Below are positions 15,086 through 31,996 of a stretch of 32,484 nucleotides of DNA, one piece after another (the stretch's first letter is position 1; every line of letters starts with the position of its first letter). The notes beneath the pieces were generated by a model. The model had not been told where the DNA came from. It searched no databases and worked only from the letters and a program-made list of their open reading frames with translations. A program made the translations under genes and the position numbers. This DNA comes from Bacteroidota bacterium (GTDB lineage Bacteria > Bacteroidota > Rhodothermia > Rhodothermales > Bin80): positions 1 through 32,484 of the forward strand of contig JAPOTE010000021.1 in the NCBI GenBank assembly GCA_026709335.1, given 5' to 3'.

Positions 15086-16264
15086 CTATAGTTCGAGTTT
15101 GGCCTGCTCAACAAAATGAGTAAGACAAGCTAGGTTACGACTTGAACTACTCACTCGCCTGCTATTGACAATGATTGCAGGAACCCCTGTAAACCCCATA
15201 CCATCAAAAAATCCACGTGTTTGGACGGTCATCGAGGAGTATTTACGCTCTGCCAGTGCTCTACGAAAATCTGCTCCATCCAATCCAAGATCCTCTGCAA
15301 ATTCGGAAAGACGCTCCACGGACAAACCTGTGGTCGGAGACTGGTGTTCAAAGAGTAAATCTATCATTTCCTCAAAGACACCATTCTCATTCGCATAGTA
15401 GAGAGATGCAATCTCCTCCAGAGAATAGGTTGGACCTCCGACGATAGGCACCGGTTTGATGACAACTTTGACCGAGTCGGGGTACTTGGCAGCAAGAGCT
15501 TTTATAGTCGGATGTACCGCCTTGCAATGATTGCAATTTGGATCCAGGAATTCCATAATCAAAATCGGGGCATCCGGTGATCCAATCACGGGATCATAGT
15601 CCATAACAATTTGCTCTAGATTGTCATAGGCAGGATATTCAAAATCATAGGTGCAGGTGGACAGATCAATATCCACATGACTGACCGCAATCGGTTCTAT
15701 CGCTTCTCGATCACCTGATAAATTGTAATAATCAAGCCCGAGAAGAATCAGGAGAACTACAGCTGTACCTGCGTGGAAATATTTTTCACTTGTCGGCGCG
15801 GGCCGGAGCTGACGAAAGGCATTTTTTTTGAATAAACCATAAAATGTGACTACCGCAATCAATGTGGCAATTGAAAACGAGTAGAGACACAACTGACACC
15901 ATCCCTCTATAGCAGTGGCCTGCAGGACTGTTAAAAATAAAGAGTAAATCCAGCCCAGCCCAACTATAACAGCTCTGCCTCGGATGAGTCTGTTGCCCCA
16001 TCCCCCAATATTTCGTGCAATTAATAGGCTCCCCAAACCAATTGTGACGTAAAACACGAATCCCCACCATGCACTGGGAATTCCAAATGGAGCAGGATCA
16101 CTGGCAATGACACCGATACAGTTTGATCCGACTCCACAAAGTGGATCCCCGTCGCCACCGCCACCATCGTACCAGAGCGCAATGTGAAGGGTCAAGCCGA
16201 TACCGGCCAGAGCCAGAACATAAAGAAGACGTTCAAGAGTCTTGCGATACACGAATAAAGACAT
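15086..16264 (-). CDS. VKOR-DsbA fusion: disulfide-bond formation membrane protein
   Basis: A 392-aa fusion of an integral-membrane vitamin K epoxide reductase domain and a periplasmic thioredoxin-like (DsbA/DsbG-type) domain. Such proteins pass electrons from newly oxidised cysteines to quinone, replacing DsbB. VKOR part: TM1 near residues 12-31, loop cysteines Cys43 and Cys49 (same 5-residue gap as the Synechococcus enzyme), the PSAWWG segment, and the active CxxC Cys123-Cys126 (CQLC). Another TM lies near 166-180. The thioredoxin part has FLDPNCNHCKAVHP with Cys244-Cys247 and a cis-Pro loop GFTGVPAIIVN. All four VKOR cysteines are present. The start at 16264 gives MSLFVYRKTLERLL, a normal N-in leader. 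It is first in the operon with transketolase and divergent from trpE. Confidence 0.92.
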   Translation of the reverse strand: MSLFVYRKTLERLLYVLALAGIGLTLHIALWYDGGGGDGDPLCGVGSNCIGVIASDPAPFGIPSAWWGFVFYVTIGLGSLLIARNIGGWGNRLIRGRAVIVGLGWIYSLFLTVLQATAIEGWCQLCLYSFSIATLIAVVTFYGLFKKNAFRQLRPAPTSEKYFHAGTAVVLLILLGLDYYNLSGDREAIEPIAVSHVDIDLSTCTYDFEYPAYDNLEQIVMDYDPVIGSPDAPILIMEFLDPNCNHCKAVHPTIKALAAKYPDSVKVVIKPVPIVGGPTYSLEEIASLYYANENGVFEEMIDLLFEHQSPTTGLSVERLSEFAEDLGLDGADFRRALAERKYSSMTVQTRGFFDGMGFTGVPAIIVNSRRVSSSSRNLACLTHFVEQAKLEL

Positions 16265-20549: not shown

Positions 20550-21124
20550 TCTTAGTTATAGATAATTACGATTCCTTCACCTATAACTTGGTGCAGCTGC
20601 TCGGCTGTACCACGAATGATATTCGTGTGGAGCGTAATGACGCGGTGACTCCTTCAGAGATCAATGCAATGAAGCCGGATGGAATTGTAATATCTCCGGG
20701 GCCAGGTCGCCCAGCCGATGCGGGAATATGTAACGATGTAGTGGCCAAACTTGGTGCTAAATTTCCAATTCTGGGAATTTGCCTGGGACATCAGATTATC
20801 GGAGAGGTTCATGGAGCGATCGTCACCTATGCTCCATCCCTTATGCATGGGAAAACCAGCATGATTCGCCACACCGGAAACGCCCTGTTTACCGATATAC
20901 CTGACATATTTGAAGCTACACGATACCACTCACTGGTACTGGATCCCGAATCAATTCCTGATTGCCTTGAGGTGACTGCTTCAACACACGATGGCATAGT
21001 CATGGGAGTTCGGCATCTCCATCAGCCTGTTGAAGGAGTACAATTTCACCCTGAAAGCATTAGAACGCATGATGGCCATACCCTGCTTAATAATTGGCTC
21101 AAGAATATTGGACTGAGATCATGA
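20546..21124 (+). CDS. trpG: Anthranilate synthase component II (glutamine amidotransferase)
   Basis: TrpG releases ammonia from glutamine for TrpE. From TTG 20546 the protein is 192 aa and begins MILVIDNYDSFTYNLVQLLG, the exact family N-terminus. The in-frame ATG at 20495 would add 17 residues read from trpS and is rejected. Class I amidotransferase features are present: oxyanion loop SPGPGRPADAG, nucleophile Cys in GICLGHQ, YHSLV, and His-Glu in VQFHPESI. The TTG overlaps the trpS TGA, and the TGA overlaps the trpD ATG, so it is translationally coupled on both sides. Confidence 0.95.
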   Translation: MILVIDNYDSFTYNLVQLLGCTTNDIRVERNDAVTPSEINAMKPDGIVISPGPGRPADAGICNDVVAKLGAKFPILGICLGHQIIGEVHGAIVTYAPSLMHGKTSMIRHTGNALFTDIPDIFEATRYHSLVLDPESIPDCLEVTASTHDGIVMGVRHLHQPVEGVQFHPESIRTHDGHTLLNNWLKNIGLRS

Positions 21125-22146
21125 CAGAGTACTTGCAGATCCTCTCTCGTGGCGAATTTCTTTCGGGGAAACAAGCGACTGATGCAATGCATCAGATCAT
21201 GCAAGGAGATGCTGATCCTGTTCAAATCTCCGGCCTGCTGATGGCCATGAGAGCCCGTGGAGAATCCATTGAAGAGCTCACCGCCTTTGTGCAGGTGATG
21301 CGAACTTATTTTATCCCGGTAAACTGTCCTGATCCACATGCGATTGATGTATGTGGGACAGGCGGAGATGGTAGCCATACATTTAATATTTCTACCGCAG
21401 CAGCACTTGTCTGCGCGGGTGCTGGTGTCACTGTTGCAAAACATGGCAATCGAAGTGTATCATCCAAATCTGGTAGTGCTGATGTGCTTGAAGCATTGGG
21501 AGTTAATGTTGATCTCAATGCGAATAAGATTGCTTTATGCATCGAAAAAACTGGGATTGGATTTATCTTTGCTCGGCACTTTCACCCCGCTATGCGTCAT
21601 GTGATGCCGGTTAGAACCGTACTTCGCTCACGTACGGCCTTTAATATTTTAGGACCACTATGCAACCCTGCAGGTGTTCGGCGCCAGGTCATTGGAGCTT
21701 TTAATCTGGAAACAGCACAAACCATTGCTGCAATCATGCATCAATTGGGAGCTGAACATATCCTTACCCTTCATTCCAGAGATGGCCTTGACGAAGCTTC
21801 TATTTCTGCACCCACAGCGGTGATTGAATACCGTAAGGGAGAGGATGCTCCAACCACTTTTCATATTGAACCCGAAAATTACGGCCTGACACAAGCAGAT
21901 CTCTCGGCTCTTGTGGGTGGGAATGCCAAACAAAATGCCTCCATGATCCGAGCAGTTCTGGATGGACATACAGGCCCCTGTCGAGACGTTGTTATTCTGA
22001 ATAGTGCGCTGGGGCTCTGGGTATCCGGACGATATGAAAGTATTGAAGACTGCATTAAGGCTGCACAGATAAGTATTGATTCCGGGGCTGCGCGAGAACG
22101 TCTACGGATACTGTGTGAATTCAGCAATACACATGACGGTTCTTGA
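21121..22146 (+). CDS. trpD: Anthranilate phosphoribosyltransferase
   Basis: TrpD joins anthranilate to PRPP. The 341-aa protein from ATG 21121 begins MTEYLQILSRGEFLSGKQAT and has the PRPP loop CGTGGDGSHTFNIST, KHGNRSVSSKSGSADVLEALG, RTAFNILGPLCNPA and HSRDGLDEAS. The ATG overlaps the trpG stop by 4 bases. A GTG-style extension to 21094 is possible but would start inside trpG. Its 3' end overlaps the start of trpC by 14 bases. Confidence 0.96.
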   Translation: MTEYLQILSRGEFLSGKQATDAMHQIMQGDADPVQISGLLMAMRARGESIEELTAFVQVMRTYFIPVNCPDPHAIDVCGTGGDGSHTFNISTAAALVCAGAGVTVAKHGNRSVSSKSGSADVLEALGVNVDLNANKIALCIEKTGIGFIFARHFHPAMRHVMPVRTVLRSRTAFNILGPLCNPAGVRRQVIGAFNLETAQTIAAIMHQLGAEHILTLHSRDGLDEASISAPTAVIEYRKGEDAPTTFHIEPENYGLTQADLSALVGGNAKQNASMIRAVLDGHTGPCRDVVILNSALGLWVSGRYESIEDCIKAAQISIDSGAARERLRILCEFSNTHDGS

Positions 22147-22933
22147 CCGAATTGTAACGGATGTGCAGGCTGCACTGAATCGGCGAAAACGCCTTGTTCA
22201 CCTGCATGAGTTGAAAGCATCCATCGATTATGAAAAGCCCGTGAGAGATTTTCAGACAGCCTTGAGCGTGCCCGGAATGGCAATCATTGCTGAAATCAAG
22301 AAACGCTCTCCTTCGAAAGGCCTCCTGCGAGAATCATTTGACGTCCCTGCTCTTGCCAAAGATTATTCGCAGGCTGGTGCAAATGCAATTAGTGTATTGA
22401 CCGAAGAAGATCATTTTGATGGATCACTTTCATATCTGGATCTTGCAGCTCGCCATTCTCAACTTCCAATTCTGCGCAAAGATTTTATCGTTGATCCCTA
22501 TCAGTTATATGAAGCTCGATCTTATGGAGCGGCAGCGGTGTTACTGATTGCAGCTATCCTTGACTCCTCACAAATTCATGATCTACTCAGCCTCGCAACC
22601 GAATTAAACCTGGCATGCCTGGTTGAAATATATGACCCGATTGAGCTGGATAAAATCGACCTTAACCAAGTCTCTATTCTTGGAGTCAATAATCGAAATC
22701 TTCATACTTTCGAGGTAGACATTAAGCACTCTCTACGGGTATTTGAATTGGTAGACAAAAACCTTGTCAAAGTATCTGAAAGTGGGCTTCGATCCTCAAA
22801 AGATCTGGCTTACTTACATCAAAGGGGAATTGATGCGGTGTTAATCGGTGAAACCTTCATGTGCGCGGACCAACCCGGCACGACCCTACGAGCACTCCGG
22901 GAAGAAACTGATGCTCTACTCAATTCAGCATAA
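22133..22933 (+). CDS. trpC: Indole-3-glycerol phosphate synthase
   Basis: TrpC closes the indole ring (CdRP to indole-3-glycerol phosphate, with loss of CO2 and water). The 266-aa TIM barrel from ATG 22133 (MTVLDRIVTDVQAALNRRK) has IIAEIKKRSPSKG with the catalytic Lys, SVLTEEDHFDGSL, LPILRKDFIVDPYQ, VNNRNLHTFEVD and SESGLRSSKDL. It overlaps the trpD end by 14 bases, indicating coupling. It is not fused to TrpF, which follows after a 150-base gap. Confidence 0.96.
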   Translation: MTVLDRIVTDVQAALNRRKRLVHLHELKASIDYEKPVRDFQTALSVPGMAIIAEIKKRSPSKGLLRESFDVPALAKDYSQAGANAISVLTEEDHFDGSLSYLDLAARHSQLPILRKDFIVDPYQLYEARSYGAAAVLLIAAILDSSQIHDLLSLATELNLACLVEIYDPIELDKIDLNQVSILGVNNRNLHTFEVDIKHSLRVFELVDKNLVKVSESGLRSSKDLAYLHQRGIDAVLIGETFMCADQPGTTLRALREETDALLNSA

Positions 22934-23083
22934 ACCTTTGGAAGAATTCGGTTGGGATAGTCGGACCAAAATGATTTCTATGACAAGTTCGCACCTTCAA
23001 CATGTTTGCCTCCCGGAAGTCTAATATATTTTTCGAACTATACATGTTTATGCCTTACATAAAACTGAGTCAGATAGAATCAG

Positions 23084-23725
23084 ATGTCATGTAAAGTGAA
23101 AATTTGTGGCCTGACAACCTTGGCAGATGCACGATTCTGTGCGGGTGCTGGGGCTGATTATCTGGGGTTTATTCAGCACCCCCCAAGCCCACGATATATC
23201 TCACCCGATCGTGCAAAGGAAATCAAAGAATGGGTTCATGGACCTGAAACGGTCGGAGTATTTGTGAATGTAGATGCAGAAACTGTCAATCTAAGCAGTG
23301 AAACAGCAGGTTTTGACATCGTCCAATTACACGGAGATGAGTCTCCTGCTTACTGTAGGCGTATCACTCGTCCGGTGATCAAAGCATTTAGCATCCGACC
23401 AAATGATACGGTTCGTGCACTTTCAAGAATTATGGACGCATATCAGGGTTGTGTAGACTACTTCCTTCTTGACACCTGGCACTCTGAACTTCCGGGTGGA
23501 ACAGGGAAAGTTTTTGACTGGAGTATTGCCAAGAACTTGGCTACGAATTTTCCCACATTGCTGGCAGGTGGCCTGAATCCCTCCAATGTGAAAGAAGCTG
23601 TTCGAACTGTTTCACCCTGGGGTATTGATCTATCCAGTGGGATCGAAGAAATCCCCGGCACTAAGGACTTTGACTTGGTAACCAAATTTTTTGAATCAAT
23701 CAGCGAGGGAGACACTGAACTATAA
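23084..23725 (+). CDS. trpF: Phosphoribosylanthranilate isomerase
   Basis: TrpF performs the Amadori rearrangement of PRA to CdRP. The 213-aa TIM barrel has VKICGLT (catalytic Cys), [52 protein letters not shown] (catalytic Asp) and [10 protein letters not shown]. The 150 bases before it (22934-23083) hold no gene; an internal promoter is possible but none is evident. The order trpC-F-B-A is common in bacteria. Its 3' end may overlap the trpB start. Confidence 0.95.
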
Positions 23726-24899
23726 CGCACCTGATGAGAACGGGCGCTTTGGACCTTATGGTGGAGCTTTCGTTCCAGAAATATTGATTCCTGAATTACG
23801 CGCTGTCCAGGCAGCATTTGAGGAGTCATGGACTGATTCAGAATTTCGCAACGAATATCTGAATCTGCTAAGAACTTATGTTGGCCGACCTACTGCTCTG
23901 ACTTTTGCTGAAAGATTAAGTAATGAGCTGGGTAGAGGAAAAATATTCTTAAAACGAGAAGATTTATGCCACACTGGTGCACATAAAATCAATAATACGA
24001 TTGGTCAGATTTTGCTTGCCTGCAAGATGGGCAAGACTCGCATTATTGCTGAAACCGGTGCAGGCCAACATGGAGTCGCTACCGCCACCGTCGCAGCCAA
24101 ATTTGGGCTCCAATGTATTGTCTATATGGGCGCTGAAGACATGGAACGCCAAGCCCTGAATGTAGCTCGCATGCAACTACTGGGGGCCGAAGTTCGTGCA
24201 GCTACCAGTGGAAGTCAGACGCTCAAAGATGCAACCAATGAAGCAATCCGTGATTGGGTTTCCAATCCAACAGATACTTTCTACATCATTGGCTCCGTTG
24301 TTGGGCCACATCCATATCCCATGATGGTACGTACTTTTCATAGTATCATCGGCGAGGAAGTTCAGGATCAATTAATAAATATAGCAGACATAGAAACCCC
24401 TGATGTGCTCGTAGCATGTGTGGGTGGAGGATCCAATGCAATTGGATTATTTTATCCTTTTATTAATTCCCCTGAGGTGCAGATGTATGGAATAGAAGCC
24501 GCCGGTGAAGGTCTCGATGGACGCCATGCTGCGACATTGACTCGAGGAACTGTGGGAGTGCTTCATGGCGCAATGAGCTACCTGCTACAGGATCATGATG
24601 GACAGATTACCCTTGCACATTCCGTTTCGGCGGGTTTGGATTACCCTGGTGTGGGTCCCGAACATTCCTGGCTTAAGGACCTTGGTCGAGTAACATACCT
24701 GACCGAGACGGATGAGTCGGCTTTAAGAGGTGTCTCACTCCTGTCCAAGACCGAGGGAATTATTCCTGCACTTGAAACTGCTCATGCTATTGCCGCGCTA
24801 GAAAAAATAGTTGCAAACGTTGAACATGACTCGATCATCGTCGTGAACTGCTCTGGTCGAGGGGATAAGGATATGCAAACTATTCTGAATCATACATGA
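23691..24899 (+). CDS. trpB: Tryptophan synthase beta subunit
   Basis: TrpB condenses indole with serine using pyridoxal phosphate. The protein (402 aa from TTG 23691) has [18 protein letters not shown], the PLP lysine in [56 protein letters not shown] and [10 protein letters not shown], all typical of the canonical TrpB1 type that works with TrpA. There is no ATG near the start. TTG 23691 would overlap trpF by 35 bases, whereas CTG at 23715, behind GAGGGAG, would give the more family-like N-terminus [13 protein letters not shown]. The start is therefore uncertain by 8 codons. Confidence 0.96.
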
Positions 24900-25720
24900 G
24901 TTCTCGATTATCCATCAGATTGCGCTCACTCCATTCAAAGGGCGAAAAAGCGATGGGAATTTTTCTCACCAGTGGATTCCCCCATCCTGATGTAACCAAT
25001 CTGCTATTGGATGCCGTTGACCAAGGCGAGGCGGACTTCATTGAATTGGGGATGCCCCACAGTGACCCTCTGGCAGAGGGTCTACCAATTCAGCGATCCA
25101 GCACACGCGCACTCAAAGCCGGCGCTACGATGGAAAGTACATTGGATGCAGTGATACAGTTCAGAAAACAGAGTGAAACTCCATTACTGCTTATGGGCTA
25201 CATCAATCCGATTTATCGATTTGGTATCGAAAATTTTTGTGCTCAAGCATCCTCTGCAGGAGTCGATGGATTAATTATACCCGACCTGCCTCCACAGGAA
25301 GCTCCCTTATTACGCGAACATGCAAGAAATCATAATCTGGATATGGTCTTTCTCGTCGCACCAAATACTCCAACCGAGCGCATGAACGAAATAGATCTCT
25401 TGTCCAGTGGTTTTGTCTATTGCGTTTCAATCACAGGCCTTACCGGGACTGGACTTGAAGGGAAAGTAGAACAGATCAATACCTATCTAAAGCGTGCAAA
25501 TGAAGCCATTCTACAAAACCCACTTCTGGTAGGTTTTGGTATTCAAACTCGTGAAGATGCAGCTAGACTCTCCAAACATACGAATGGTTTTATTGTTGGG
25601 TCTGCGGTGGTAAACAAAATTGAACACCTCTGGGCGCAAGGTAACCTGTCTCTACCCCAGCGCTGTCAGTACCTGACACATTTTGTGCGCTCACTTAAAC
25701 TAACTGTTAACCCCAAATGA
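24896..25720 (+). CDS. trpA: Tryptophan synthase alpha subunit
   Basis: TrpA cleaves indole-3-glycerol phosphate and channels indole to TrpB. The 274-aa TIM barrel has [33 protein letters not shown] (catalytic Glu50), [35 protein letters not shown] and [10 protein letters not shown]. The usual second catalytic Asp in DPLADGP is Glu61 here, and the usual Phe before SDP is His. The ATG overlaps the trpB stop by 4 bases and the stop overlaps the next gene the same way, so coupling is tight. Confidence 0.95.
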
Positions 25721-26844
25721 CCATGCGACGTATTACATTCCTATTGACTGTAATGCTGTTTTCCCAAGGCTGTGGAGATGGCGGGCTACTTGGTGGAGAT
25801 TATCGACCCGATGCAACAGGCATTGAAGGCCAGATTACAGTTGTAATTGACTCCGTGCTATGGAATGGAACTGTGGGTGAAGCCTTACAAATTCATGTGG
25901 GCGGTTCAATTGAAACACTCCCGTCTGCCGAACCAGAGTTTGACTTGGAAGCAATCGGCTTGACTTCATCCGCTGCCTTTGATATGGCAAAAGATCGGAA
26001 AAACGTCATGATCGTAGGCTTGATTGCAGATTCAAGTTCCGAAAACATAACAACCGAAAGCGAATACCTCAATACGATCTTCAGTAATGACTCCTTACGT
26101 CAGATGATTTTGGAAGGATCACCTGCGCTTGTCGCAAGACCCAACCACTGGCGCAGGAATCAACTTGTCTATTATCTGGCTGCAGCCTCCCCCAGTGACC
26201 TAATCATGTCTCTTGAACAAAATTCGGAGCAACTCAGGTACCATTTTAACGAAGTTTCCAGAACCCGCCTTCATCGTGACATGTTTGATATTGGCCGTCA
26301 ACATGATATAGAACAAGCTCTAATAGAAGAGCATCAATTTGCAGTGAATGCACAACATGATTATTTCATCGCCATTGATACAACCCAATTCGTATGGCTA
26401 CGCCGTTCCCTTACAGATACGTGGCGAAGCCTGTTCGTCTACTATGAGGAGGAAGGAGATCCCTCAAAATTAAATGCTGACTGGATTGCTCGTGCACGCG
26501 ATGCACTCACCCAACGCTATATTAGTGGTACTGCTGGGGGATGGATCGAAATTGACCGACGCCGTCCGATGACGATACAAGAAATCAATTTCAAAGACAG
26601 ATATGCCATCGAGTTCAGAGGACTATGGCATATGGTAGGCGAAGATAATGGACGTAAGTTCCCCTTTGGAATGGGCGGCCCTTTTGTGACCTATGCCTTT
26701 TATGATGAACCGACTCAACGGCTCTATCTGATCGATGGAATGGTATTCGCTCCCAATTTTTCCAAACGTGAATTCATGAGGCAAATGGAAGTCATTGCAT
26801 ATACCTTCCGCACTCTTCAAGAGGTGGAAGGTGAGAGCGTGTAG
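25717..26844 (+). CDS. DUF4837-like lipoprotein
   Basis: A 375-aa probable lipoprotein: signal FLLTVMLFSQGC with acylated Cys19 after SQG. The mature start GGDYRPDATGIEGQITVVIDSVLWNGTVGEAL is typical of the DUF4837 family of Bacteroidota, which is of unknown function. The middle (MIVGLIADSSSE..., ARPNHWRRNQLVYYLAAAS) and the C-terminal KFPFGMGGPFVTYAF with YLIDGMVFAPNFSKREFMRQMEVI also fit. The ATG overlaps the trpA stop (ATGA), so it is expressed with the trp operon although no link to tryptophan is known. Confidence 0.8.
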   Translation: MTMRRITFLLTVMLFSQGCGDGGLLGGDYRPDATGIEGQITVVIDSVLWNGTVGEALQIHVGGSIETLPSAEPEFDLEAIGLTSSAAFDMAKDRKNVMIVGLIADSSSENITTESEYLNTIFSNDSLRQMILEGSPALVARPNHWRRNQLVYYLAAASPSDLIMSLEQNSEQLRYHFNEVSRTRLHRDMFDIGRQHDIEQALIEEHQFAVNAQHDYFIAIDTTQFVWLRRSLTDTWRSLFVYYEEEGDPSKLNADWIARARDALTQRYISGTAGGWIEIDRRRPMTIQEINFKDRYAIEFRGLWHMVGEDNGRKFPFGMGGPFVTYAFYDEPTQRLYLIDGMVFAPNFSKREFMRQMEVIAYTFRTLQEVEGESV

Positions 26845-28436: not shown

Positions 28437-28455
28437 AGAATTTTGGGGTTATTTT
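28433..28455 (+). terminator. Near-perfect palindrome with T-rich tail
   Basis: CCCCAGAATTTTGGGG (28433-28448) folds into a short stem and is followed by TTATTTT. It could terminate plus-strand transcription 208 bases after the glycosyltransferase stop. Because it sits exactly where IS sequence begins, it may instead be part of an IS end. Confidence 0.3.
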
Positions 28456-28648
28456 GTAAAAAAGACAGCCACCAGAGGCGGCAAATTCAGAGGAGTTTCT
28501 GTCAGTTCACCGAACTGGTAGACGAAGAAAGTTGGATTCCTAAAAGCTTGAATGCCCGCCTTTGTGTAGAGGAGTGTCCTTCCATCAGGATGGTCTTGTG
28601 GGTCTTGTCTGTTTTTATTTTTGGAACCCCCGTCAGGCGGCACAGCCC

Positions 28649-28692
28649 TGACAACTCTTCCATTACCGCCTGACAACTCTTCCATTACCGCC
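28649..28692. repeat. 22-bp tandem duplication in transposase remnant
   Basis: TGACAACTCTTCCATTACCG plus CC is present twice in tandem (28649-28670 and 28671-28692), with a partial third start after it. Because 22 is not a multiple of 3, it shifts the transposase frame. Removing one copy restores a family-like C-terminus. Confidence 0.9.
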
Positions 28693-29260
28693 TGATAACT
28701 CATCGCCTTTCCGCCATCTGCGGTTCGTTTGGTGCGAGCTTTCTTTGTGGTCTTCGCCGACGGCTTGGCCGGCTCTACAATACTCTTGCGCTCTGCCTTC
28801 TTTCCTTCGGGATCCTCTTCCGAAAACAGCATTGGCGCCAGCTTCTGCCGCAGGTGATACTCCACATAATAGGCCAGCATGCACAAAAAGATATGCGCAA
28901 CCACCCGTTCCTGCTTGCGATGATGAATGAGCCGCACCTGCAACGACATGGACTTCATCGTACGAAAGGCCCATTCCACCGATGAAAGACGCTTGTAATC
29001 TGCCACCAACTCCTCCGCCTGTTGCTTCACACTCGACCGGATCGCATACACGCCGTCGAGGCGCTCCGCTCTCTGAATCGCTTCGGTGTTGCGCGTATAT
29101 GAAAAATGTCCCTCCTCAATCTCCCATGTAAAGAATTTTCTCATCTTGTACTTTTGAAACACCTTCCCGACCCGAACCCCAATCTTCCCTTTGTCCTTCA
29201 ACCGGCGCGGCTTGCCATGAACCGACTGCACAATCCGGTCCAGCCTCGCCTCTACCTTGA

Positions 29261-29283
29261 CCAGCATCGCGTCCAGCATCGCG
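29261..29283. repeat. 11-bp direct repeat at the transposase deletion junction
   Basis: CCAGCATCGCG occurs at 29261-29271 and again at 29273-29283, just where the transposase protein loses its catalytic core (around AMLDAMLVKVEARL). The repeat may mark slippage or the recombination that produced the deletion. Confidence 0.6.
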
Positions 29284-29829
29284 CTGGTGGTCAGTTTGCT
29301 GGCAGGAGCCAGGACGCGGGCCGCAATCATGCCGAGAACCAGTCGACGGAAGCGGGAATTGTTTGGCGCAATGAGTTCAGCCATCCCAAGTTGCTTCATC
29401 ACTCCCAGCACCGCCGCGACATGTCCGTGCGGTTTGTTGCTCTTCACATCAAACGCATCTTCAATGGACTGGACCGCGGTGCCGCCCCGGAAGAGAATTC
29501 TGAGTCCTTCAATGACAGGCTTCGGGAACCCGGTAATATTGGCGATGGTGGTTTTGATGATTTTATTGCCGTCTCGTTTGGACTCTCGGACGAGGATGGT
29601 GGGGGTGGAGTTTCGGTTGGGGATTTTCTCGACATACATGGGCAGGCAGTTTAAGACATTAAAGAGGCTGAAATTCGACAAATTGCAGGCAAAATCCACA
29701 AAAATCGGCGCTAGGAAGCCCGAATCAAAGACCAGTGGTGAAGAAAAATTCGCTGGATTCCCCTAATCCGAGGTTTTTAGGGAGGAAGTTCAGGTATATT
29801 TAACGGTATACACATACCACATCCAGTTC

Positions 29830-30866: not shown

Positions 30867-31580
30867 ATGTTGAACCACAGTTTTCTGGCTCTATGCCGCG
30901 GTTTCCTGCCCTTTTTGATTTTAACATATTTTTTGGTTGGATGCTCTGATGACGCCTTAGTTACCGTCGAGGATACTACCACGATGAACAACGTTGCACC
31001 GGGTGAGCGACATGCGACTGAGCAATCAGATTCTCCTGTTACGGTAGAAGATTATGTTTCCGCAATTATGAGTTCTGCCAGTACAATTTCCAATCCTGCT
31101 CACTGCGTGATTTCAGACATTGCAGAGATCAAAGTTGAATCTGGAATGATTCAGGCACATCTGGACAGTGCCCTACCCGATGGGGACGAAAATGAAATCA
31201 GTAAGGCGGTGGATGATTCGAAATCTTTGTTCGATAGATTAGCTGTGAATTGTTCTGGACTAAAAACAATTAAGACGCTTGCGGAAGAAATGTATGGAAA
31301 GTTTCCCGACTTACTTGAAATGAATCAAGTTGAGTTGCGAAATTTATTATATAGCCATGCTAGATTGAACAAGCAAACTGATTGTGAGGAGCGTTGTGCA
31401 GCCACTGCTGTATTCCATATTGCAGCCGTAGAAGTCGCTTGGGCAGCCGCAATGGGGCTTTGTGTTGGGACAACTATCGGCTATCCTGCCTGTGCAGGAG
31501 CTGCAACAGCAGTAAAATACCTGACTTTAACTGCAATAGGGATAGATCTTGCAAGCTGTCTGGAGGCTTGCAAAGGATGA
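30867..31580 (+). CDS. Lipoprotein with Cys-paired hydrophobic C-terminal hairpin, unknown function
   Basis: A 237-aa protein with a lipoprotein signal (FLPFLILTYFLVGC, acylated Cys26), an acidic linker (27-62), a helical middle with Cys80 and Cys129, and a striking C-terminal 65 residues. That tail has CEERC (Cys173, Cys177), an Ala-rich hydrophobic helix, Cys199 and Cys209 flanking a GTTIGYPAC turn, a second hydrophobic helix and CLEAC (Cys231, Cys235). Two CX3C pairs at the ends of a helical hairpin suggest disulfide stapling in the periplasm. I cannot name the family. GGAAGG lies a few bases before the ATG. It is coupled to the next gene by an ATGA overlap. Confidence 0.75.
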   Translation: MLNHSFLALCRGFLPFLILTYFLVGCSDDALVTVEDTTTMNNVAPGERHATEQSDSPVTVEDYVSAIMSSASTISNPAHCVISDIAEIKVESGMIQAHLDSALPDGDENEISKAVDDSKSLFDRLAVNCSGLKTIKTLAEEMYGKFPDLLEMNQVELRNLLYSHARLNKQTDCEERCAATAVFHIAAVEVAWAAAMGLCVGTTIGYPACAGAATAVKYLTLTAIGIDLASCLEACKG

Positions 31581-31996
31581 TCCGCCAGCGTAAAGCAATG
31601 TCTGAGAAAGAAATAAGATTCGTTATATTCAAAGTGTATGCTCGCGGTTGGATTTTGCTAAAATGGAGCAAGGTGCTCTTTTTTATTGCTTTGATTCTGG
31701 GTGGTTTTAGTGTTTTTCTTAGCGCATGGATGTGGTCAAGTACTCCGCATACTTTTACCGTATGGAGTGGCTTGTTTTACGTTTGCATGGGTATCTTGAT
31801 AGCGTTTTCAGCAATAATTGCATTTGGGTTTCCTCACAGATTATTGACAGTTCCCTTACGGAAACATCTTATACCCGAGGGCCATGTTAGGCAGTATTAC
31901 GACAGTTGTGTTGAATCGCTGAAACTGGGTGTTCCCATAATTGACCCGAAAACTGGTCAATTATCCAAATTGGAGGGGACTCCCGATCAGTGTTAA
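31577..31996 (+). CDS. Two-TM membrane protein coupled to the upstream lipoprotein
   Basis: From ATG 31577, overlapping the upstream TGA by 4 bases, a 139-aa protein: basic N-terminus MIRQRKAMSEKEIRFVIFK, then two TM helices (WSKVLFFIALILGGFSVFLS and SGLFYVCMGILIAFSAIIAF), then a soluble C-terminal tail of about 55 residues (RLLTVPLRKHLIPEGHVRQY...). Longer in-frame extensions to 31394 only shadow the lipoprotein. No family recognised. The coupling suggests the two products act together at the membrane, for example as anchor, immunity or export partner; that is inference. Confidence 0.65.
   Translation: MIRQRKAMSEKEIRFVIFKVYARGWILLKWSKVLFFIALILGGFSVFLSAWMWSSTPHTFTVWSGLFYVCMGILIAFSAIIAFGFPHRLLTVPLRKHLIPEGHVRQYYDSCVESLKLGVPIIDPKTGQLSKLEGTPDQC

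Follow-up and report, generated by a model that had tools for sequence, protein, structure and literature searches.

The SitA proteins of Myxococcus xanthus are reported to be lipoprotein toxins without a dedicated exporter (PMC5562445, PMC8546572). CdzC and CdzD of Caulobacter crescentus are reported to be small glycine-zipper proteins that use type I export (PMC5380434). The window, by which we mean the whole 32,484-nucleotide stretch of DNA analysed here, is the entire contig C65 of a 2.81 Mb genome in 125 contigs and carries a gene pair, the sole copy in its genome, that resembles both systems in part. As in SitA/SitI, the family of this pair combines a lipoprotein of conserved N-terminal and variable C-terminal part (PMC5562445, PMC8546572) with a proposed immunity gene directly downstream (here assigned by position, in 18 of 20 copies), several versions per genome and mobile surroundings. 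As with CdzC/CdzD and CdzI, the product would be cell-associated and probably membrane-acting and the immunity protein a small transmembrane protein, whereas a lipid anchor and a Cys frame are not described for Cdz in the available portion of the report (PMC5380434).

The differences from SitA/SitI are that the C-terminus of our protein is a six-Cys helical hairpin with no known nuclease domain, that the partner is an integral membrane protein and that no sitB-like gene was noticed. A nuclease domain was sought in the hairpin proteins, and no Pfam domain scored above the cut-off in the proteins scanned. The pattern of a conserved carrier with a polymorphic C-terminus is present in the genus of the window (g1), and we liken this carrier to the SitA escort domain by pattern alone. 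Transfer of SitA depends on TraA/TraB; a scan of the window's own genome with TIGR04201, presumably a TraA repeat model, gave no match and no control match either. By analogy, the pair may work like SitA/SitI and would not be a member of that family since no nuclease domain was found.

Other known proteins share single features with the pair. Pore-forming colicins have integral-membrane immunity proteins and a membrane target. Halocin C8 is a Cys-rich hydrophobic peptide at the end of a larger precursor with an N-terminally fused immunity part; our protein also ends in a Cys-rich segment but differs from halocin C8 in its Cys pattern. No halocin C8-like match was obtained with the models of the NCBIfam release used. 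The plant alpha-hairpinins and vicilin-derived hairpins have four Cys and shorter arms and, like our protein, form a helical hairpin in which each arm bears a CX3C motif; a profile match to 6o3q, presumably a hairpin of this plant type, was not significant (E 6.8). Sublancin-type glycocins are small secreted glycosylated peptides with nested disulfides across a helical hairpin, in contrast to the lipoprotein carrier here, and in conotoxins Cys frames serve as hypervariable toxin scaffolds. Two candidates were rejected. The twin-CX3C small Tim/CHCH proteins have a short CX3C-to-CX3C spacing, whereas the spacing here is 3-21-n-21-3 with no Pfam match, and similarity to the entericidin lipoprotein toxin reached 16.6 bits (L003a) against the required 94, over 26 residues on the signal peptide.

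The hairpin lipoprotein and its membrane partner

Table 1. Coordinates, strand and basis of features in the window.
Feature	Position	Strand	Basis or remark
ORF with VKOR-family domain	15086-16264	-	Domain at 15845-16219, 56.1 bits (cut-off 27.5); same contig as hairpin gene
Transposase ORF (DDE type)	28449-29699	-	40% identical to transposase ORF beside L029
Hairpin lipoprotein gene, 237 aa	30867-31580	+	ORF and homologues
Signal peptide and lipobox (Cys26 codon 30942-30944)	30867-30944	+	Sequence
Six-Cys hairpin with 21-residue arms	31383-31571	+	Cys spacing, predicted structure
Two-TM partner, 139 aa, ATGA overlap, proposed immunity protein	31577-31996	+	Sequence, family

The sequence-only reading had described a lipoprotein with a twin-CX3C hairpin, overlapped through ATGA by a gene for a small two-TM membrane protein, and this anatomy was confirmed (Table 1). 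The signal peptide ends in the lipobox LVG-C (LTYFLVG-C26-SDD), and the S-D-D behind Cys26 supplies acidic residues similar to those of the surface-export signal in Bacteroidota lipoproteins. Near the C-terminus, the Cys residues 173, 177, 199, 209, 231 and 235 (codons at 31383, 31395, 31461, 31491, 31557 and 31569) have precisely the claimed spacing of 3-21-9-21-3. The spacing is mirror-symmetric, with 173+235, 177+231 and 199+209 each summing to 408, a symmetry needed for three rungs to span an antiparallel hairpin. Both helices are rich in Ala and hydrophobic, with mean Kyte-Doolittle values of +1.58 and +1.10. This description suits the present member and does not extend to the family, where the mean hydropathy of helix 1 reaches from +1.58 (the window) down to -1.66 (L029). 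In the partner, the hydrophobic segments lie at residues 33-51 and 66-84. Promoter and terminator scans at the gene pair stayed near the shuffle expectation.

In the AlphaFold model of the full-length protein (mean pLDDT 64.1), helices were predicted at residues 173-200 and 206-235, with a pLDDT of about 76-86 there. A hairpin-only model built from 20 sequences had a mean pLDDT of 94.5, and DSSP assigned to it a single helix at 2-69, at odds with the break at 201-205 in the full-length model. Its end-to-end superposition on a two-helix ATP-synthase c subunit (68 of 70 residues, 2.1 A) leads us to read the hairpin-only model as a hairpin with a helical turn. The c subunit, although the best match (VIA Z 8.9), was rejected as a functional clue since the arrangement is common, and structure searches with either model returned generic helical matches alone, none at E <= 0.001. 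Disulfide rungs C1-C6, C2-C5 and C3-C4 would staple the hairpin. The VKOR-domain ORF of the window likely encodes a disulfide-forming enzyme, to judge from its domain.

The pair had also been placed among IS remnants. One was confirmed upstream, where the transposase ORF matches DDE_Tnp_1 at E 6.8e-4 (below the Pfam cut-off); downstream, the ORF at the contig end has no Pfam match. Transposases are also found near two relatives, L002 and L031. A run of trpD-, trpF-, trpB- and trpA-like genes followed by a DUF4837 gene (21094-26844, + strand) is ordinary chromosomal context.

Distribution, cysteine frame and partner association

Judged by sequence similarity, the pair in the window is part of a patchy, unnamed two-gene family in the class Rhodothermia. 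When 99 genomes were searched with the complete protein, 28 gave matches at E <= 1, and four were accepted beyond its own genome (G014, G057, G013 and G019), one of them, G057, with two tandem hairpin copies, and G014 and G057 both belonging to the same family and order as the window; matches at E >= 3.9e-4 were dropped, though L010 and L014 among these later proved real by profile. A profile search in the window's order, Rhodothermales, recovered 11 copies from 9 of 114 genomes, and an earlier profile search of the class gave 14 of 244 genomes. The widened profile gave 15 of 244, from which G003 (a broken remnant alone) and G076 were discarded, leaving the family in 13 of 244 Rhodothermia genomes plus one spacing variant in G274. 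The profile-search rows dropped were L057, L035, L122 (G003), L123 (G076), L134 (G002:C12) and L136. Outside Rhodothermia, nothing convincing was found in two samples of 394 genomes from the phylum, and tblastn of the hairpin against plasmids gave no match. The proteins scanned had no match above the cut-offs in Pfam, NCBIfam, PADLOC or PHROGs, and none of our literature searches listed the six-Cys hairpin/partner family. Similarity to VanA (E 0.043 and E 0.072) was dismissed as chance, being confined to one short stretch far under the cut-off.

Among 20 copies compared, only the six Cys are invariant, with a loop of 6 to 26 residues between arms of constant length. This set was chosen with a pattern that fixes the 21/21 arms, so support for the spacing comes from copies found earlier or via partners. 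All five copies from the whole-protein search (including L004) have 21/21 arms. So do all 11 from the order-wide profile search, which makes 11 of 11 for the copies found by whole protein or gapped profile without use of the spacing, and three more besides. In g1, seven hairpin copies were reached via the partner gene, six of them with full 21/21 arms and the seventh, L091, without the fourth Cys. The Cys frame is thus more than chance, since homologues found independently of the spacing keep both 21-residue arms. Copies outside the 20-copy set are L091 (fourth Cys lost), L086 (sixth Cys lost), L055, which has four Cys (C-x23-C-x9-C-x21-C), L036, and the broken or altered L082, L084, L098 and L102. 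Homologues without the conserved Cys, named in advance as the finding that would speak against the toxin-like reading, are confined to L055, the variant L036 and decayed copies. Besides the protein of the window, 12 intact copies have a lipobox, three of them recognized by eye after the pattern had missed them.

Two outliers differ in architecture. L036 (1206-2148, - strand, in G274) is a lipoprotein with a symmetric Cys spacing of 6-14-13-14-6, behind which lies an 86-aa ORF with three hydrophobic segments; it was the single match in 116 relatives of its genome. L027 (1291-2433, - strand) encodes a 380-aa protein with the same hairpin, no lipobox, a Cys-rich tail and no partner, and the tail resembles Dickkopf_N (E 4.3e-4, below the cut-off).

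The search of other genomes, proposed as a check on the pair, found the hairpin with a small hydrophobic ORF directly 3' in 18 of the 20 copies, with the ATGA overlap recurring at L028, L031 and L059. The exceptions are L003b, where a second hairpin gene intervenes before the partner, and L027, the one homologue without a partner and itself a non-lipoprotein outlier; a homologue of this kind had likewise been named as a point against the pair. A single automatic neighbour rule recognized a partner at 8 of 12 hairpin genes versus 1 of 86 other genes at the same loci, the four misses being these two exceptions, L004 (one segment over the threshold) and L026 (at +160, just outside). Subfamilies differ in the number of hydrophobic segments of the partner, from two to four, and the partners appear too diverged for common descent as one family to be established. 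By eye, no other shared neighbours, type I secretion genes included, were seen in ten loci, and no candidate delivery system stood out. A match of the partner to Phage_holin_5_2 was rejected as weak (E 0.054; 14.2 bits against 29.2), and nothing favours the export role that had been offered as an alternative to immunity.

Divergence and asymmetric decay

Within the genus of the window, the pair has multiplied into paralogues. The four-TM partner of the L056 pair has matches in 11 of 39 genomes, with up to eight per genome, and the upstream sequence was read for 29 stretches around these matches and for one P0002 match. Hairpin genes recognized by strong profile matches precede seven of the partners (L081, L088, L089, L091, L094, L095 and L101), three of which, L089, L094 and L101, share one genome. 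In 19 of the 21 pairwise comparisons among L088, L089, L091, L094, L095, L101 and L127, the carriers are 45-76% identical versus 5-33% for the hairpin helices; the exceptions are L089/L091 (97-98% throughout, helices 95-100%) and L094/L127 (carrier 76%, helices 57-67%). For the 14 remaining pairs with full-length partners, partner identity is 37-61%. Between L088 and L091, DNA identity is about 0.75-0.9 before the hairpin, falls to 0.4-0.63 inside it and rises again in the partner, and the drop was milder in two other pairs tried. The dN/dS values of six pairs, 0.42-1.05 for the hairpin versus 0.22-0.41 for the carrier (the seventh pair, L056/L081, being excluded for its broken frames), suggest faster protein change in the hairpin, and do not establish positive selection or a ratio above 1. 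Taking all 18 pairs together, hairpin and partner divergence are correlated (r 0.68, a value attained in 0 of 5000 permutations). The same holds inside g1 (r 0.87, 91 of 5000) but not for the 11 pairs outside it (r 0.08, 1333 of 5000).

The two genes also decay unequally. In 5 of the 20 copies (L002, L060, L056, L081 and L088), a frame break or stop severs the hairpin from its signal, and the partner is open in all five; L028, at a contig end, stays outside this judgement. Assembly errors may lie behind such breaks, since the genomes are drafts or were assembled from metagenomes. In L056 and L081, which come from two species, the lipoprotein signal is in a different frame from the hairpin, which suggests an old pseudogene or, with lower probability, a programmed frameshift, and the dN/dS of the hairpin frame is 0.78 versus 0.37 and 0.46 for the two partners, all from small counts. 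The partner is doubled in both of these loci, and in L082 and L055 a fusion has doubled it.

At 10 of 27 partner places searched upstream, there was no trace of a hairpin. Six of these have an unbroken partner match (L083, L092, L097, L099, L105 and L108), one has a single stop in the match and keeps an ORF of 137 aa (L085), and three have a broken partner (L096, L103 and L107). The contrary cases are L102, L104 and L109, where the partner is broken or short beside hairpin remnants. The orphan partners L105 and L108, from two species, are both located some 650 bases behind one and the same gene, presumably cysS.

Possible functions of the pair

Of the options in the sequence-only reading, a mobile pair of toxin-like hairpin and membrane-bound immunity partner fits the evidence best, short of proof; it would account for a hypervariable hairpin on a conserved carrier, duplicated and orphan partners, broken hairpins and IS neighbours. 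We estimate at roughly one in two the probability that the pair is a member of a diversifying two-gene toxin-immunity family. The reasons for a polymorphic toxin-immunity system are that the variation falls mainly in a single Cys-framed domain of the anchored carrier, that a membrane partner is coupled to it, and that spare or orphan partners and hairpin-only loss are frequent. More tentatively, the family may be a new class of polymorphic weapon, in which a hypervariable hairpin framed by three Cys rungs on a lipid-anchored carrier is matched by a cognate integral-membrane immunity protein and radiates within single Rhodothermales genomes.

From the anatomy and the family pattern we infer toxicity, immunity and delivery along the following lines. 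By its sequence, the first gene encodes an exported lipoprotein, and the C-terminal hairpin of predicted fold would be locked by the three rungs in the oxidising envelope. The hairpin, exposed on vesicles or at the outer membrane, would reach a neighbouring related cell and insert into, or disturb, its membrane. A membrane target is suggested by the integral-membrane nature of the proposed immunity protein, as with CdzI and the pore-forming colicins, and given the range of hydropathy, membrane insertion is not obvious for every hairpin. The translationally coupled partner would protect the producer and its kin by blocking the hairpin. The copies compared do show that hairpins far outpace their carriers while keeping the Cys frame, and that the pair is patchy, duplicates and decays, often with a broken hairpin gene beside an open partner.

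The hypervariable part on an anchored carrier and the patchy distribution would fit equally well if the hairpin were a surface ligand or decoy that acts with the membrane partner in self recognition, adhesion or the exclusion of phages or plasmids, with no killing involved. We consider such a module unlikely, as orphan and duplicated partners and hairpins broken beside open partners would be less expected and no PADLOC or PHROGs match of note was obtained. Translational coupling, disulfide staples and the amphipathic or hydrophilic helices of some copies could instead point to a structural or stress-sensing envelope complex of lipoprotein and partner with the stapled hairpin as a docking rod. 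This is harder still to credit for a pair that is so patchy among the 244 genomes, unlike a housekeeping complex, with helices so dissimilar between paralogues of one genus and with one partner commonly decayed. The same two-gene cassette, with its ATGA coupling and nearby transposases, might also be a self-directed toxin-antitoxin or lysis pair in which the membrane protein acts as an antidote or a holin, and broken hairpin genes beside open partners fit here too. It is the least probable of these explanations, since no relative was found in the viral contigs scanned with P0001 and the L089 protein, and since addiction modules are not usually exported as lipoproteins, hypervariable or built on a conserved carrier longer than 100 residues.

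If the toxin-immunity reading is true, lipoprotein-borne polymorphic toxins would reach beyond the myxobacteria to the Rhodothermia and would include a non-enzymatic, disulfide-stapled scaffold with an almost freely changeable surface. The family would then provide a natural library of hairpin/immunity pairs for studying how membrane-acting toxins are discriminated. Whatever its function, this unnamed and fast-changing six-Cys family, which has kept its 21/21 arms across genera, merits a family model.
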